A program made the position numbers and the translations under genes. Positions 8,464 to 57,420 of a DNA stretch of 64,000 nucleotides are shown piece by piece; within the stretch, counting starts at the first letter, position 1; the number at the start of each line of letters is the position of its first letter. Source of the DNA: Isosphaera pallida ATCC 43644 (GTDB taxonomy: Bacteria > Planctomycetota > Planctomycetia > Isosphaerales > Isosphaeraceae); NCBI RefSeq assembly GCF_000186345.1, contig NC_014962.1:4120450-4184449 (forward strand), given 5' to 3'. The notes beneath the pieces were generated by a model, which saw only the letters and a list, made by a program, of their open reading frames with translations, was not told the origin of the DNA and did no database searches.

Positions 8464-8616
8464 ATCGCCTCGGGGCGTTGGCCGCTTGCGATCAGCGCGA
8501 CCCGAGGCCACAATAACCCTCATGCCTTCACGAGTTTCATCGCCGCGTTTTCCCCATCGGATTGATGTTCGATCCGTCGCCCTCGAATTCGACGTGACCC
8601 GTTGAGGATTCGTCCC

Positions 8617-9864
8617 ATGCCTCCGCGACCGCGACCCTCGAAACCGACCCGCGCGGGCTTCACCCTCGTGGAATTGCTGGTGGTCATCTCGATCATCGCC
8701 ATTCTGATCGGCCTGCTGCTGCCGGCGGTCAACAGCGCGGTGGAGTCGGCCCGGCAAACCAAAACGCTCAACAACCTCCGCCAGTTGGGGATTGGCCTGA
8801 CTTCCTACGCCTCGAAGAAACAGGTTTTCCCTTACGCGGGGGTTTATGCGAGTCCTGCCTCGGTGGTCGCCGCCGAGGGAAGCGGTGCCGGCACCACTGA
8901 GATCGTCCCCAACGCGGGCAACACGGTGGTCAACGGTCGGCAGGTCGGCGCGATGTATAGCTGGGTGGTCGAAATCCTTCCCGAAATCGACCAGCAAAAC
9001 CTGGCCAATCAGTGGTCCAAAAACTTCAGTTACACCGACCTCACGCCCAACCCCAATCAGGTCGTCAGCAACGCCCAGCTCGCCACCACCTTCATCCCCA
9101 GCCTGGTCTCAGGCCGGGACGACAGCGCTGTGGGCGGCGGTGCGCTCTCGTTCGTGGCCAACGGCGGCTTTTTACGGTTCCCGCCAGTCGGAACCAACCC
9201 CAACGATCCCAACCGCGTCAGCGCTTGGTGGAATGTCGCACCGTCGGGCGGCACGGTGCAATGGCAGCCCACCCCAATCACGCTCGGGCCTCCGCTCAAC
9301 GAGTTTCACAACGACACCGCGGTGATGACCATTGGTGTGGCCGCGCCCGGCGGCGGCGTCAGCCCCGCGCCGTTCAACCACCGTACCCGGTTGTCCAACA
9401 TCACCGACGGAGCGAGCCAAACTCTGCTGCTGGTCGAAAACGTCTTCGCGGGCAACAGCGAACGCACAATCGACAATCCGGCCTACAGCTGGGCCTCGCC
9501 CCACCCCAACCTCGTCATGTTCACCGCGCCAGCCCCAGCGCTCTACGGTTCGAGTCCGCCCAACCGGGCGTTGGCCAACGACTTCGCTAACAACCCGCTC
9601 ATGGCGATCAACGGCGGCACCCGTGTTGGCCTCAGTCTTAGCAACCCGGGCGGCTTGCAACAATTCGACTATCTCGACGGTCACATTCCCTATCCCAACA
9701 GCGGCCACAACGGGATTCTTCCCGCGCTCTTTTGCGATGGCTCGGCCAGGCGGATCAACGAATCGATCAACGGCGCAGTCTGGTCAGCCCTCATCACCCC
9801 CCGAGGCGGCAAGCTGCCCGTTCCCTTCCGCGAAACCCCGGTTGATCTCACCGAACTCGACTGA
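8617..9864 (+). CDS. DUF1559 prepilin-like protein
   Basis: The N-terminus carries a canonical prepilin cleavage and methylation motif, [19 protein letters not shown], with Glu at +5 after the Gly/Phe junction, followed by the start of the long helix. DUF1559 is the expanded planctomycete family of such proteins, and the C-terminal [18 protein letters not shown] segment matches the family's 'H-x-G-x9-DGS' closing motif. Length is 415 aa from ATG 8617, preceded by GAGGA at 8604-8608; an upstream TTG at 8602 is less likely. It should be inserted in the inner membrane and processed by a prepilin peptidase. The role of DUF1559 proteins is not established. It follows the GspJ- and GspK-like genes in the same direction, so all three may contribute to one surface structure. 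Confidence 0.88.
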
Positions 9865-9974: not shown

Positions 9975-10135
9975 GTGGAGAGTGGGGTGTGGGGTGTGGG
10001 GTGTGGGGTGTGGGGTGTGGGGTGTGGGGTGTGGGGTGTAGGGTGTGGGGAGTGGGCAGTGGGCAGTGGGCAGTGGGGTGTGGGCAGTGGGCAGTGGGCA
10101 GTGGGGTGTGGGCAGTGGGGTGTGGGCAGTGGGGT
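9975..10135 (+). repeat. Heptamer tandem array 1 (GTGGGNN, about 23 units)
   Basis: Twenty-two consecutive 7-bp units run from 9982 to 10135, preceded by one degenerate unit (GTGGAGA). The first eight are GTGGGGT, then come GTAGGGT and GTGGGGA, and then a mixture of GTGGGCA and GTGGGGT. The plus strand is G-rich with regularly spaced runs of three or four G, which fits the G-quadruplex pattern. A short degenerate remnant follows at 10157-10180. Short heptamer repeats of similar composition (STRR) are known from filamentous cyanobacteria; the resemblance is noted from memory. Confidence 0.93.
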
Positions 10136-10467
10136 GTGGTGGGTTCAGAAGAGTAGGGTTTGGGGAGTGGGGTGTTCGGAGGAGAAGATAAGGAATAAGG
10201 AGTTTCGAGTTGGGACGGAAGAAGTGGGAAGAGAAAATAAGCTGTGGGTGATCGTAGGATGAAGTGACATCAGCGCTCCGGTTTGCAAAACCCTCACTCA
10301 TGCCTTTGCATTCTTAGATATTTCGATATTGACAAAAGCATTCAATATGACAGGATTCACATTCGTTGCGATTATAGATGATCGATGTAGCAGCCCGCAA
10401 CTTCCCGTTTTACATCGATCGAATCTCATCTTTAATTTTCTCGCTTTTTCCTTATCAAACAGCACTC
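10136..10467. other. AT-richer spacer between the two heptamer arrays
   Basis: This 332-bp stretch is clearly lower in GC than its surroundings, especially 10187-10463. I see no coding region with codon use like the neighbours, no tRNA and no inverted termini. It probably contains the promoter of the downstream redoxin gene. A perfect TTGACA is present at 10329-10334, but no convincing -10 box follows at 16-18 bp. Confidence 0.5.
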
Positions 10468-10572
10468 TCCCCACACCCCACTGCCCACACCCCACTGCCC
10501 ACTGCCCACTGCCCACTCCCCACACCCCACTCCCCACACCCCACTGCCCACTGCCCACTCCCCACACCCCAC
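10468..10572 (-). repeat. Heptamer tandem array 2, inverted copy (15 units)
   Basis: Fifteen exact 7-bp units (ACCCCAC, TGCCCAC, TCCCCAC) run in register. Read on the minus strand they are GTGGGGT, GTGGGCA and GTGGGGA, the same unit types as the array at 9982-10135 but in opposite orientation. The array stops ten bases before the AGGAG ribosome binding site (10582-10586) of the next gene, so it must form part of that gene's leader or promoter. The two arrays could pair into a long imperfect stem around a 332-bp loop. Confidence 0.93.
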
Positions 10573-10594
10573 TCCCCCCACAGGAGCCTTGTTC

Positions 10595-12478
10595 ATGAAT
10601 CGCCTCAGCCAACGCCAACGGGGATGGATCATCGCCAGCCTAGGATGTCTGATCGCGGTAGGGTGGTGGTCTTTGACACGGGGGAGCGCGGACGCCGCCG
10701 CATCAAACGACACGCTCCCGGCAATCGGCGCAGTGGTTGATGCGGGCACAATTACATTTAAGGACCAATGGTTTCTCAGTCGATCGCTGATGGATCTTGA
10801 ACCGGCGGAAATCAAGGTGGTCGTTGCCGTTACGGAGTTTTGCCCGTTAGTCAAGCGATACGCCCCTAAACTGGAAATGCTGTTCCGAACCTATCGCGAT
10901 CGCCAGGTGAGCATGTTAGCGCTCTATGTCGGTCCCGAAGCCTCCGTGCCCCGTATGGCCGCGCACGCTTTCGAATTTGGTCTGACCTTCCCGATCGGTC
11001 GGGACGCCGAGGGTGTCGCTGCCGCGGCGCTGGGGTTGACGCGCACGCCCCAGGTGGTCGTGTTGAATCGGGAGAACCGGATCGTCTATCGCGGACGCAT
11101 CGACGACCAATACCGTGTGGGGGGAGAGCGTCCTCACATGCGAACTGACGACCTGCGCGACGCGATCGAGGCGTTGCTGGCCGGCCGCGCGATTGCCAAC
11201 CCGGAAACGCCCGCCGACGGCTGCCGCATCACTCGCCCAGTTGCGCTAAGGTTGAACCCCGCACCCACCTACCACGGACACATCAGGCCGATCCTGCAAG
11301 CCCATTGCGTGGAGTGTCACCGAAACGGTGGCGACGCCCCGTTCCCGCTGACGACCGTCGGCGACGCCCGCCAGCACGCCGAGACCATCGCCGAGGTCGT
11401 GGCCGAGGAACGAATGCCTCCCTGGTTCGCCGACCCCCGGCACACTGAGTTCGTCAATCGGAGAGGTCTCGACCCGGAGGAAAAATCCCTTCTGATCGCC
11501 TGGTGTCGGGGTGATCGGGCGCTGGGAACCCCGCGCGAATCGGTCGAGCCGTCGGTTCCACGATCGTCCGAAGCCGTGAAGACCAACGACGCCGAAAGCA
11601 ATTCGAAACCGGGCAATTGGACCTGGCGGATTGGCACGCCTGACCTGGTGATTGTTCAACCCTTCGCGCACCAGTTGCCCGCGACTGGTTTTATCGACTA
11701 CAAATACGTCGTTTTCCCATATCTCTTCACTCATGAGACTTGGGTAGATCACGTGGAAATCACGTCGGACAACCCGACCGTGTTGCACCACGCCAATTTG
11801 GCCTGCGTGCCGCTGGGCCGCAAGTTCGAGCAGGAGTTTTTCATCACCGGCAAGGTACCCGGCGGCGACCCGATGCGGCTCGATCCGGGAATCGCCTACA
11901 AAATCCCAGCTGGGTCGGTGCTGGCGATTCAAATTCATTACACCACCACCGGCAAGCCGGAAACCTGTCGGCTGGCGATTGGTCTGAAATATCCACGGGT
12001 GAAGGTCCAACGGCAACTTCATCATCAACAGGTGACCACGGGGCGGTTCCTGATCCCGCCGGGCGAACCGGCGCACGTGGTCCAAAGCACGCGGACGATC
12101 CCGTTCGACGCCGAAGGGCTTGGCATGTTCTCGCATATGCACTTGCGTGGCAAGAACATGATCTTTGACGCCATATCGCCCGAGGGCCGGCGCGAGCGGC
12201 TGCTGGTGGTACCGAATTATCATTTTGAATGGCAGCAACCCTATCGCTGGCGTCCAGGGACCAAGCGGTTCCCTGCCGGGACAGTTTTGGAGGTGACCGC
12301 GCAGTTCGACAACTCGGCGTTCAACCCGTTCAATCCGGACCCCAGCCGCGCGGTGGGCTACGGCGATCAGACGTATGATGAGATGATGTTCGGCTTCGTC
12401 TTCTACACGCGGGCCGACGAGGCGCTCGACCTCACGATCGACCCCAAGACGGGCCGGGTGGTTTGGGGCCCGCGTTGA
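10595..12478 (+). CDS. Redoxin - cytochrome c - copper monooxygenase-like fusion protein
   Basis: Three parts are visible. Residues 10-27 are a signal/anchor helix. Residues about 45-205 are an AhpC/TSA-type redoxin with a single candidate peroxidatic Cys83 (TEFCPLVKRY). Residues about 225-305 hold a c-type haem motif CVECH at 238-242. The rest, to residue 627, resembles the C-terminal domain of copper type II, ascorbate-dependent monooxygenases, with candidate copper ligands in HHANLACV, IQIHYTT and HMHLRG (His514, His516). Such fusions occur repeatedly in planctomycetes; the substrate is unknown. It is presumably exported and redox-active. ATG 10595 was chosen for AGGAG at 10582-10586. The leader is formed by the inverted heptamer array, which is unusual. 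Confidence 0.8.
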   Translation: MNRLSQRQRGWIIASLGCLIAVGWWSLTRGSADAAASNDTLPAIGAVVDAGTITFKDQWFLSRSLMDLEPAEIKVVVAVTEFCPLVKRYAPKLEMLFRTYRDRQVSMLALYVGPEASVPRMAAHAFEFGLTFPIGRDAEGVAAAALGLTRTPQVVVLNRENRIVYRGRIDDQYRVGGERPHMRTDDLRDAIEALLAGRAIANPETPADGCRITRPVALRLNPAPTYHGHIRPILQAHCVECHRNGGDAPFPLTTVGDARQHAETIAEVVAEERMPPWFADPRHTEFVNRRGLDPEEKSLLIAWCRGDRALGTPRESVEPSVPRSSEAVKTNDAESNSKPGNWTWRIGTPDLVIVQPFAHQLPATGFIDYKYVVFPYLFTHETWVDHVEITSDNPTVLHHANLACVPLGRKFEQEFFITGKVPGGDPMRLDPGIAYKIPAGSVLAIQIHYTTTGKPETCRLAIGLKYPRVKVQRQLHHQQVTTGRFLIPPGEPAHVVQSTRTIPFDAEGLGMFSHMHLRGKNMIFDAISPEGRRERLLVVPNYHFEWQQPYRWRPGTKRFPAGTVLEVTAQFDNSAFNPFNPDPSRAVGYGDQTYDEMMFGFVFYTRADEALDLTIDPKTGRVVWGPR

Positions 12479-43266: not shown

Positions 43267-43662
43267 ATGCGCAATGCGTTTGTCTCCACATTCTTGATCG
43301 CCTGGGGTAGTGTGGTTCTCGCCGACCAACCCGTTCCTCAGGCTCCCTTGAAGGGGATGCCTGTTCCTGGACCGGTGATGGCTCCACAAAAAGGACTGCC
43401 TCTGGCCCAAGGTCCGATCCCCGCTCCCGTCAAGGGTCTGCCGGTTGCTCAAGGGCCCATCGCGGCTCCGGCCAAGATGATCCCCGCTCCCGTCAAGGGT
43501 CTGCCGGTTGCTCAAGGGCCCATCGCGGCTCCGGCCAAGATGATCCCCGCTCCCGCTCCTGTGGCTCAAGGTCCGATCTCCGCTCCTGTCAAGGCTATCC
43601 CTGGTCCCGTGGGACAAGCCCCCGCTCCCGCCGTCAAGTCATTCCCAACCATCCAGCACTGA
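43267..43662 (+). CDS. Small secreted Pro/Ala-rich repeat protein
   Basis: 131 aa. A signal peptide is clear: MRNAFVSTFLIAWGSVVLA followed by DQP. The mature protein consists of near-repeats of APVKGLPVAQGPIAAPAKMI and shorter variants (QGPI-APVK), dominated by Pro, Ala, Gly, Val and Lys. There is no Cys and no globular domain. At the DNA level two 63-bp copies are identical (see repeat entry). The gene has its own candidate promoter and a strong terminator, so it is probably an independent transcription unit. A cell-wall, sheath or adhesive role is possible because Lys/Pro-rich repeats suit extended extracellular proteins, but nothing shows it. I do not recognise a family. Confidence 0.75.
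   Translation: MRNAFVSTFLIAWGSVVLADQPVPQAPLKGMPVPGPVMAPQKGLPLAQGPIPAPVKGLPVAQGPIAAPAKMIPAPVKGLPVAQGPIAAPAKMIPAPAPVAQGPISAPVKAIPGPVGQAPAPAVKSFPTIQH
43421..43546 (+). repeat. Exact 63-bp tandem duplication inside the Pro-rich gene
   Basis: Bases 43421-43483 and 43484-43546 are identical, each encoding 21 residues in frame. A third, partial copy begins at 43547 and diverges after nine bases. Exact identity at synonymous sites implies a recent duplication or active homogenisation. Confidence 0.95.
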
Positions 43663-55941: not shown

Positions 55942-57420
55942 ATGGGGCCTCATTCACGTCACATGACCTCCTCATCCGTGGTGGCGTCCTCGGATCAACC
56001 CACCAAGATGAGTGGACGGAGCCCGCGATCCGCGCGTGGTCGGCGAGGTCGATCTCGATCGCGTGGGGGTCTAATCGCGTCCACCCTGGCGGCGGCGTTG
56101 CTGCCGGTTGCGCTGATGGTCGCTCAGCCGACTCTCATGTTCGAGCGCGGGTGGGTCCAGTTCGCCGGCGTGGTCGTCTATTGGTTCGGCCTGGCGCTGC
56201 TGGGCCGCATCCTCTGGCGTCTGCACGTCGAAGAGGTCGGGTTCCAACGAGCCGACGCCTGGGAACGAGCCGCCGATCTTGGCGAGATCGCCCGCTCCAT
56301 CCCACCCGACGACCCTAGCGAGCTAGCGCGACGGCTCCGCCAACTCGCGTTCACCCACTTGGTCATCTCATCGCCACCGCACCCGCGACCAAACGCTCCC
56401 GAGGCATCGTCATCCGATCGGATCGGAATTGCTGGCGTCCTTCCGTTGAACAGCCCTTGCGTTGAGCCCGCTCCCCGCCACGCCCCCCCCCTCACCCGCC
56501 CCTCACTGGGCCAACTCATCGAACTCAACCGCGAAGCATCCGCGCTCGATCAGGAGCGAGCCGCGGGCCGCTTCGCTTTGCCCCGCTATGCTCTCTACCT
56601 GCTACCGGTCATCGGCTTCATCGGCACGGTTGAGGGGATCTCGATCGCGCTGTTCCGCATGTCGCAAGTGCTGCCCACCGTCAACGACCTAGACGGCTTC
56701 CTCGCCAAACTCGCGGGAGTCACCTCAGCCCTCCAAATCGCCTTCGACAGCACCCTGCTGGCGCTCTTTCTAAGTGCGCCCTTGATGTTCGTCTTGACGT
56801 TGATCCAACGACGCTCGGAGGAAAACCTCGCTCGGATCGACCAGTGGATCGTGGAGAACGCCCTGCCGCGTCTGAGTGGCGACGATGCCTGGGCGGGTCT
56901 CTCCGAGGGTCTGGCCCGATTGGAACGCGCGATCGAGCGGCAATCGCACGCCACCCGCGCCACACTGGAGGCGCTGGGCGGCGGCCTCGCCCCGCAAACC
57001 GAACGCCTGGCCGACGCGGTGGCCCGTCTCGGGCTGGGTCTGGAACGATTCGAAAGCGCCGCGCAGCAACTCGCCGCCCTTCAAGACGACCTCCATGCAA
57101 TCGCCGGACTCGTTCATCAACACCTGGCGATTCAACGGAACGACCATGCTGCTCAAATCGACGCCCTGACGCGGCTGCGCCACGCCACCGAGCGTACCGC
57201 CCAGGGTGTCGAAGCGCTGGCCGGGTCGCTCGCCGAATCGTTCGCCGAATCGACCCTCTCGGCCCAACGTCAGCTCGAAACCACTTTGGCTGGTCTACGC
57301 GACACCCTTGAAATGCTGCATGTTAGCATAGATCAGGGACATGTCCTGTATCGCTCGATCGTGAAGAAGATGACTCCCGCGCATCTGGTCAGCACGCCGG
57401 GACGCGAGGACGCCGCTTAA
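55942..57420 (+). CDS. MotA/TolQ/ExbB-type proton channel protein with long tail
   Basis: 492 aa from ATG 55942, behind AGGAGGGACGAAGG. A basic N-terminus leads to two membrane helices (about residues 44-66 and 71-91). A cytoplasmic segment of about 110 residues follows, then the two helices that define the family: YLLPVIGFIGTVEGISIALF and LQIAFDSTLLALFLSAPLMF. Residues about 290-480 form a heptad-rich helical tail (LARLERAIERQSHATRATLE and similar). ExbB and TolQ end soon after the last helix, so the tail is extra. The channel would use the proton gradient to drive a partner. The next gene encodes a membrane protein in the partner position. ZorA of Zorya defence also has such a tail, but no ZorC or ZorD is nearby. 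Confidence 0.85.
   Translation: MGPHSRHMTSSSVVASSDQPTKMSGRSPRSARGRRGRSRSRGGLIASTLAAALLPVALMVAQPTLMFERGWVQFAGVVVYWFGLALLGRILWRLHVEEVGFQRADAWERAADLGEIARSIPPDDPSELARRLRQLAFTHLVISSPPHPRPNAPEASSSDRIGIAGVLPLNSPCVEPAPRHAPPLTRPSLGQLIELNREASALDQERAAGRFALPRYALYLLPVIGFIGTVEGISIALFRMSQVLPTVNDLDGFLAKLAGVTSALQIAFDSTLLALFLSAPLMFVLTLIQRRSEENLARIDQWIVENALPRLSGDDAWAGLSEGLARLERAIERQSHATRATLEALGGGLAPQTERLADAVARLGLGLERFESAAQQLAALQDDLHAIAGLVHQHLAIQRNDHAAQIDALTRLRHATERTAQGVEALAGSLAESFAESTLSAQRQLETTLAGLRDTLEMLHVSIDQGHVLYRSIVKKMTPAHLVSTPGREDAA

Follow-up and report, generated by a model that had tools for sequence, protein, structure and literature searches.

S23p (PF05635) is a four-helix-bundle protein known from intervening sequences (IVS) in bacterial 23S rRNA, whose stem is cut by RNase III, and we know of no catalytic activity for this protein. 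A second group of relevant sequences is the STRR heptamers of cyanobacteria, dispersed 7-bp tandem arrays including CCCCA-type units, which Mazel et al. are said to have described in 1990 as simple repeats. The 23S rRNA intervening sequences with an S23p ORF, such as those of Coxiella and Leptospira, have been described as parasitic or selfish (PMC4990558), and a CRISPR association of the 23S rRNA intervening protein (IVP) has been listed elsewhere (PMC10910872). According to Rehm et al. (PMC4692102), the GGGAATC repeats of Xanthomonas form convergent heptamer pairs near stop codons and the Xanthomonas heptamers are mostly transcribed; heptanucleotides of Calothrix are mentioned there as well. 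Over-represented G-patterns in Isosphaera pallida have also been noted earlier (PMC4060949).

Here, an intergenic feature of I. pallida was compared with these systems. It lies at positions 9975-10577 of the window, which is the whole stretch of 64,000 nucleotides that was analysed, and it probably belongs to a widespread but seldom recognized family of mobile hairpins, each bounded by G-rich 7-bp tandem arrays in inverted orientation. It is best read as an S23p-associated mobile hairpin element, in a copy without an ORF that is probably non-autonomous, and as a relative of the rRNA intervening sequences.

Structure and neighbourhood of the element in the window

The features of the element and of its surroundings are collected in Table 1. 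The two arrays exist as the first-pass annotation had described them (23 units and 15 opposite ones, by TRF and by register reading), and the spacer between them is 331 bp long. When the left arm is read in register from 9975, its imperfect units include the first one (GTGGAGA) and one GTAGGGT. TRF reported a period-7 array at 9982-10139 on the left (22.6 copies, 88% matches, GTGGGGT) and another at 10467-10577 on the right (15.9 copies, CTCCCCA), where the exact units occupy 10468-10572 on the minus strand and are accompanied by a 9-nt end piece.

Table 1. Positions in the window of the parts of the element and of the neighbouring features
Feature	Position	Strand	Remarks
Upstream neighbour, DUF1559/N_methyl gene	8602..9864	+	Outside the element
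Left arm	9975..10135	+	23 heptamers GTGGGNN, mostly GTGGGGT and GTGGGCA
Left-arm continuation	10136..10200	+	Degenerate, G/purine-rich (e.g., GTAGGGTTTGGGGAGTGGGGTGTTCGGAGGAG); sequence read
Core	10201..10440	.	AT-richer; two other elements with flanking arrays have homologous cores
Sigma-70-like promoter match in the core	10347..10375	+	9/12, consensus scan; weak, not evidence of function
Right arm	10467..10577	-	15 exact GTGGGNN, facing the left arm, to which 51 nt are exactly complementary
Probable ribosome binding site (GGAG) for the redox gene	10582..10585	+	Just outside the element; sequence read
Redox gene	10595..12478	+	Outside the element; redoxin-domain (PF08534) protein, CVECH heme motif

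The suggestion that the two arrays belong together and could form one large stem was borne out by the 51-nt exact complement that the arms have in common and by the RNA fold of 9975-10577, in which arm pairs with arm at a predicted -325 kcal/mol, compared with -239.5 +/- 8.3 kcal/mol for 20 shuffled sequences (z -10.3). Likewise, the G-rich strand fits quadruplex patterns, as had been noticed, with at least four GGG runs separated by short loops. No Rfam family was matched between 9800 and 10700 up to E 1, and a consensus scan of the region revealed no intrinsic terminator. A profile search for an S23p gene or a relic of one found none in the core of this copy, and the same was true of the other ORF-less cores.

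On the upstream side, the stop codon of the DUF1559/N_methyl gene lies 110 bp ahead of the left arm; on the downstream side, the right array ends 10 nt before the GGAG and 22 nt before the ATG of the redox gene. The first-pass annotation had regarded the arrays as the leader of this gene. In six relatives, however, the orthologues of the redox gene (51-55% protein identity) are preceded by regions of 92-370 bp without arrays, and therefore the feature is not a gene-specific leader; the upstream genes of these six orthologues also differ from that in the window. In I. pallida itself, the element is found at 13 further places, where its neighbours are unrelated genes and its outer ends mostly abut stop codons. 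If the redox gene is affected at all, this would be incidental to the insertion.

Elsewhere in the window, a 63-bp unit is repeated 2.2 times with 100% identity at 43416-43555, and ARAGORN reported a tRNA with a four-base anticodon (cagt) at 56905-57001, which is probably a false positive.

A family of convergent arrays in the I. pallida genome

The genome searched comprises 5,529,304 bases (chromosome of 5,472,964 and plasmid of 56,340). Three adjacent GTGGGNN units gave 290 overlapping matches in it versus 51 for the reversed pattern, so the arrays are not a product of chance, and a DNA search of the genome with the whole window element returned 95 matches. At least 14 convergent array pairs, each 0.34-1.2 kb long and with the G-rich strand always facing inward, were resolved within the regions retrieved around matches, which makes their number a lower bound, whereas no divergent pair was present among those resolved; some single arrays were found in addition. 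The 14 paired elements cover 0.18% of the genome. With respect to the expectation that placement and orientation of the arrays would be informative, both are strongly non-random and the pairs are always convergent; the pattern nevertheless speaks for a mobile element and not for regulation of the redox gene.

Unrelated sites have cores in common, and three groups could be recognized. The window core is 73-75% identical to those of the elements at chromosome 3059014-3059660 and 3070712-3071160, which are 83% identical to each other (73-83% for the whole group), and the other two groups are formed by the elements near 3299k and 3307k (82-91%) and those near 3422k and 3456k (89%). Outside the heptamers, the arms of eight elements match at 81-98% over 36-182 bp (up to 94.5% over 182 bp), and the arms of one element resemble each other more than the elements resemble one another.

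The gene context was examined with our own codon-model gene calls after masking of the arrays, because longest-ORF reading frames run through them. On this basis, 18 of 36 arrays have a sense stop codon at most 30 nt before their start, and none of the inner ends of these 36 arrays lies that close to a gene end. An array of five exact units occurs in just one of the 44 further genomes examined from the order, and long GTGGGNN arrays are missing from the remaining 43. A search for target duplications at the 14 elements of I. pallida gave 3.2 bp versus 3.1 bp for mismatched flanks, hence no excess.

The distribution of the family along the chromosome is uneven: a fifth of its length (2549416-3667736) contains 11 of the 14 paired elements (p 3e-4 by simulation), and those that have a core in common lie only 8-34 kb from one another; local spread or a tolerant region are candidate causes. 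In the pair at 3299171-3300087 and 3307607-3308659, 8 kb apart, the cores are in opposite orientation and the arms in the same orientation, and either the core or the whole element may have been inverted. At 2966363-2966640, a 28-bp tandem array (GGAGTGGGACGCGAGAAGCGGGGTGCTT) adjoins the left array of an element and has the appearance of a higher-order repeat that arose by growth of mutated heptamers. The plasmid record opens inside a GTGGGGA array, and thus one array spans the record start (56178-56340 and 1-78).

S23p genes between inverted arms

Only one PF05635 gene was found in the I. pallida genome, and it lies inside one of the 14 elements, between arms of the same type as those in the window. 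This element (chromosome 2792564-2793786) represents the full form; its 123-aa ORF matches PF05635 (E 3e-39 to 7e-40) and is related to the solved Xanthomonas protein 2gsc. The full form is the one that carries an S23p gene, and I. pallida has a single such copy; at least 13 of its paired elements, that in the window among them, lack the gene. A contig of Nitrosomonadales, which was found only via its arrays, has convergent GTGGGGA arrays that exactly flank an S23p ORF.

Since the S23p genes of both I. pallida and Nitrosomonadales were inside convergent arrays, S23p genes were then tested in general. An inverted-arm score of at least 30 was obtained for 84% of 69 S23p loci (27 planctomycete, 15 plasmid, and 27 in genomes chosen for arrays; mostly best-scoring database matches, planctomycete set included, and not a random sample) versus 6% of 145 unrelated small control ORFs of similar size (p 9e-26); separate tests used off-centre controls from the same locus. 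The arms had a period of 7 or 14 in 49 of 58 cases and were G-rich on the inward strand in 54 of 58, and recognizable arms were absent from about 10-16% of the sampled S23p genes. Loci with arms occur in other planctomycetes, cyanobacteria, Xanthomonas, and others. Their units vary by locus (such as TAGGGAG, CAGGGAA, AGGTGAC, and GGTTGCT): in array-bearing genomes, some S23p genes are surrounded by GTGGGGN arms (Scytonematopsis, Tildeniella, Lyngbya, Cylindrospermum, and Nitrosomonadales), and the S23p gene of Xanthomonas codiaei has arms of GGGATT type. The likeness in arms between S23p loci and array families could reflect shared mutational properties instead of common descent. A search of the literature, largely of openly accessible journal articles, yielded no account of S23p genes flanked by heptamer arms, nor of STRR pairing around them.

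The orientation of the arrays is similar in other genomes. Within 119 array-bearing stretches, mostly from cyanobacteria, neighbours no more than 1.5 kb apart were convergent in 25 cases and divergent in 4, and a sense stop codon was no more than 30 nt from 40 of the outer ends, compared with 4 inner ends near an antisense one.

Insertions on cyanobacterial plasmids

On cyanobacterial plasmids, S23p genes were detected between genes of operons, such as cas10/cmr2 and cmr3, cas6 and cas4, or nrdB and nrdA. The S23p insertion is present in plasmids of Trichormus and Scytonema and absent from the approximately 97% identical plasmids of Aulosira, Microchaete, Nostoc, and Tolypothrix; at the Trichormus/Scytonema junction, the 5-bp GTAAT is found on both sides and overlaps the stop codon of the upstream gene. 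Similarly, comparison of Nostoc ATCC 53789 (filled) with Nostoc C057 and C052 (empty) revealed a 5-bp TTCTA duplication, also at a stop codon. A clean target duplication was seen at only these two site comparisons, both of which concern S23p-bearing plasmid copies. The cmr, TraM, nrd, and integrase sites have an empty counterpart as well; there, the bases around the junction also differ and some are replaced.

These plasmids also bear on the proposal that the arrays change in length by whole units, which appears plausible: between related plasmid copies, arrays of this kind are longer or shorter by precisely one or two heptamers, with a 14-bp difference in the left array between the Trichormus and Scytonema copies and a 7-bp difference in the right array between two copies at the TraM site. 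In addition, a plasmid of Nostoc C052 contains a copy of the element in which most of the S23p gene is deleted, which indicates a route by which ORF-less remnants can arise.

With regard to the S23p genes inside CRISPR operons (cas6/cas4 and cmr2/cmr3), the cmr site with its empty counterpart suggests that they are there by insertion, which may explain the CRISPR association of the 23S rRNA IVP listed in PMC10910872.

Interpretation and alternatives

The copy in the window has the convergent pair of G-rich 7-bp arrays and has no S23p gene between its arms. Because the test for an S23p relic was negative, it is classified as a presumed ORF-less relative and not as a proven member of the S23p-associated elements. 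What the genomes display directly is the family in I. pallida, the association of S23p with arms, and the presence or absence of S23p-bearing copies elsewhere; from these, we infer that the window copy is of the same lineage, that it has moved, that S23p helps in this, and that the arms change by slippage. Mobility itself is documented for the S23p-bearing plasmid copies only, and mobilization of the window copy, as well as the role of S23p, would follow by extension. The ORF-less copies might be non-autonomous derivatives that spread in trans with the help of S23p, which, together with a putative replication, recombination, or reverse-transcription step, would move them, and their arms may lengthen and shrink by slippage. 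The hairpin may be tolerated because insertion beside a stop codon spares coding sequence and because the transcript could be cut at the stem in the way in which RNase III acts on rRNA intervening sequences.

Several alternatives were considered. The arrays might have been born locally by replication slippage, without any mobile element, each inverted partner having arisen within that intergenic region through a template switch or by duplication in inverted orientation, and they would stop at stop codons since selection removes expansion into coding sequence. The greater likeness of arms within an element than between elements, the variation of array length by whole units, and the occupation of the space up to stop codons all agree with such an origin, which is nonetheless distinctly unlikely considering that unrelated sites have cores in common, that such arms show a specific enrichment around S23p genes, and that precise insertions have empty sites in near-identical plasmids. 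It is unlikely as well, to a lesser degree, that the element is a regulatory or insulating device kept by selection, in which the hairpin stops read-through or serves as an RNA-processing site, with a G-quadruplex on one strand. Such a role is suggested by the very stable predicted stem, by the array starts close to sense stop codons (about half of the I. pallida arrays and many elsewhere, the inner end hardly ever), and by the transcription and position of the Xanthomonas heptamers as reported by Rehm et al. (PMC4692102); however, the element is absent at the relatives of the redox gene and long GTGGGNN arrays are absent from all but one of the 44 further genomes of the order, the flanking genes are unrelated, and no intrinsic-terminator pattern is present. 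A regulatory effect could coexist with a mobile origin.

The phase-variable leader of the redox gene that the first-pass annotation proposed would account for a right array that stops so shortly before the start codon, but most elements are not placed ahead of a start codon at such spacing, and the six orthologues have no arrays, which makes it very improbable. Even less probable is a RAYT/REPIN-type family, in which paired inverted repeats are moved by a Y1 transposase: although the repeats are paired, inverted, short, G-rich, intergenic, and dispersed, the arms are tandem heptamers and not a REP hairpin with a fixed head, and the sole Y1_Tnp match in the genome (chromosome 4939391-4939621) is inside a long unrelated frame far from any array. 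The Y1 transposase was thus rejected as the mover. The frame in question resembles a DNA methylase gene and is located among repeated GGGAGCGTGGGCATCTTGCCCGC hairpins, which look like a separate REP-like family.

Beyond the reading of the window feature as a copy of a mobile hairpin element, a broader and more tentative proposal, to which we give somewhat less than an even chance, is that the heptamer arrays regarded as simple repeats in planctomycetes, cyanobacteria, and Xanthomonas all serve as arms within a single widespread mobile class that has no transposase (S23p plus a 7-bp-periodic hairpin), which would insert at stop codons with 5-bp duplications and spread ORF-less copies, the 23S rRNA intervening sequences being a special case. 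If true, this would join three questions, namely what S23p/IVP proteins do, why G-rich heptamers abound between genes in some bacteria, and how rRNA intervening sequences originated, and it would predict a mobile element without a recognized transposase that chooses stop codons. S23p genes inside CRISPR and conjugation operons would then have a simple explanation, insertion rather than function.

Comparison with known systems

REPIN/MITE-type elements resemble the family described here in being short, ORF-less, and dispersed, with inverted ends and a presumed dependence on a protein encoded elsewhere. They differ in that no relative of a transposase was found here and the ends are tandem arrays of variable length; in particular, the I. 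pallida genome has no cognate Y1 transposase beside the repeats, as a REPIN/RAYT system would. At the level of the protein, S23p has its four-helix-bundle fold in common with Avd of diversity-generating retroelements (PMC10053308).

A closer likeness exists to the GGGNATC repeats of Xanthomonas and Nostoc, which, according to Rehm et al. 2015 (PMC4692102), are G-rich heptamers that are intergenic, near stop codons, and capable of G-quadruplex formation, and often form convergent pairs (70-75 pairs in Xanthomonas). The passages of that article considered here give no link to a mobile element or to S23p; the units here are GTGGGNN and the cores are long (0.2-0.9 kb). The element in the window belongs, like these repeats and the STRR, to dispersed intergenic G-rich heptamer arrays that are partly arranged in convergent pairs.

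With the rRNA intervening sequences, the full form shares its plan, in which complementary arms that pair into a single stem surround a small gene for S23p (PF05635), as well as an ORF that can decay and a sporadic distribution (PMC4990558). In the window, the complementary arms are likewise predicted to fold into one stem; the element sits between two protein genes and not inside an rRNA gene, and it has no Rfam match. More generally, the elements described here are found between protein genes instead of in rRNA, their arms are mostly G-rich tandem heptamers, a 5-bp duplication lies at the stop codon at each of two resolved sites, and most copies in I. pallida lack an ORF. Among described systems, rRNA intervening sequences that carry S23p (PMC4990558) come closest, the present elements being set apart by their location and by their tandem-repeat arms.
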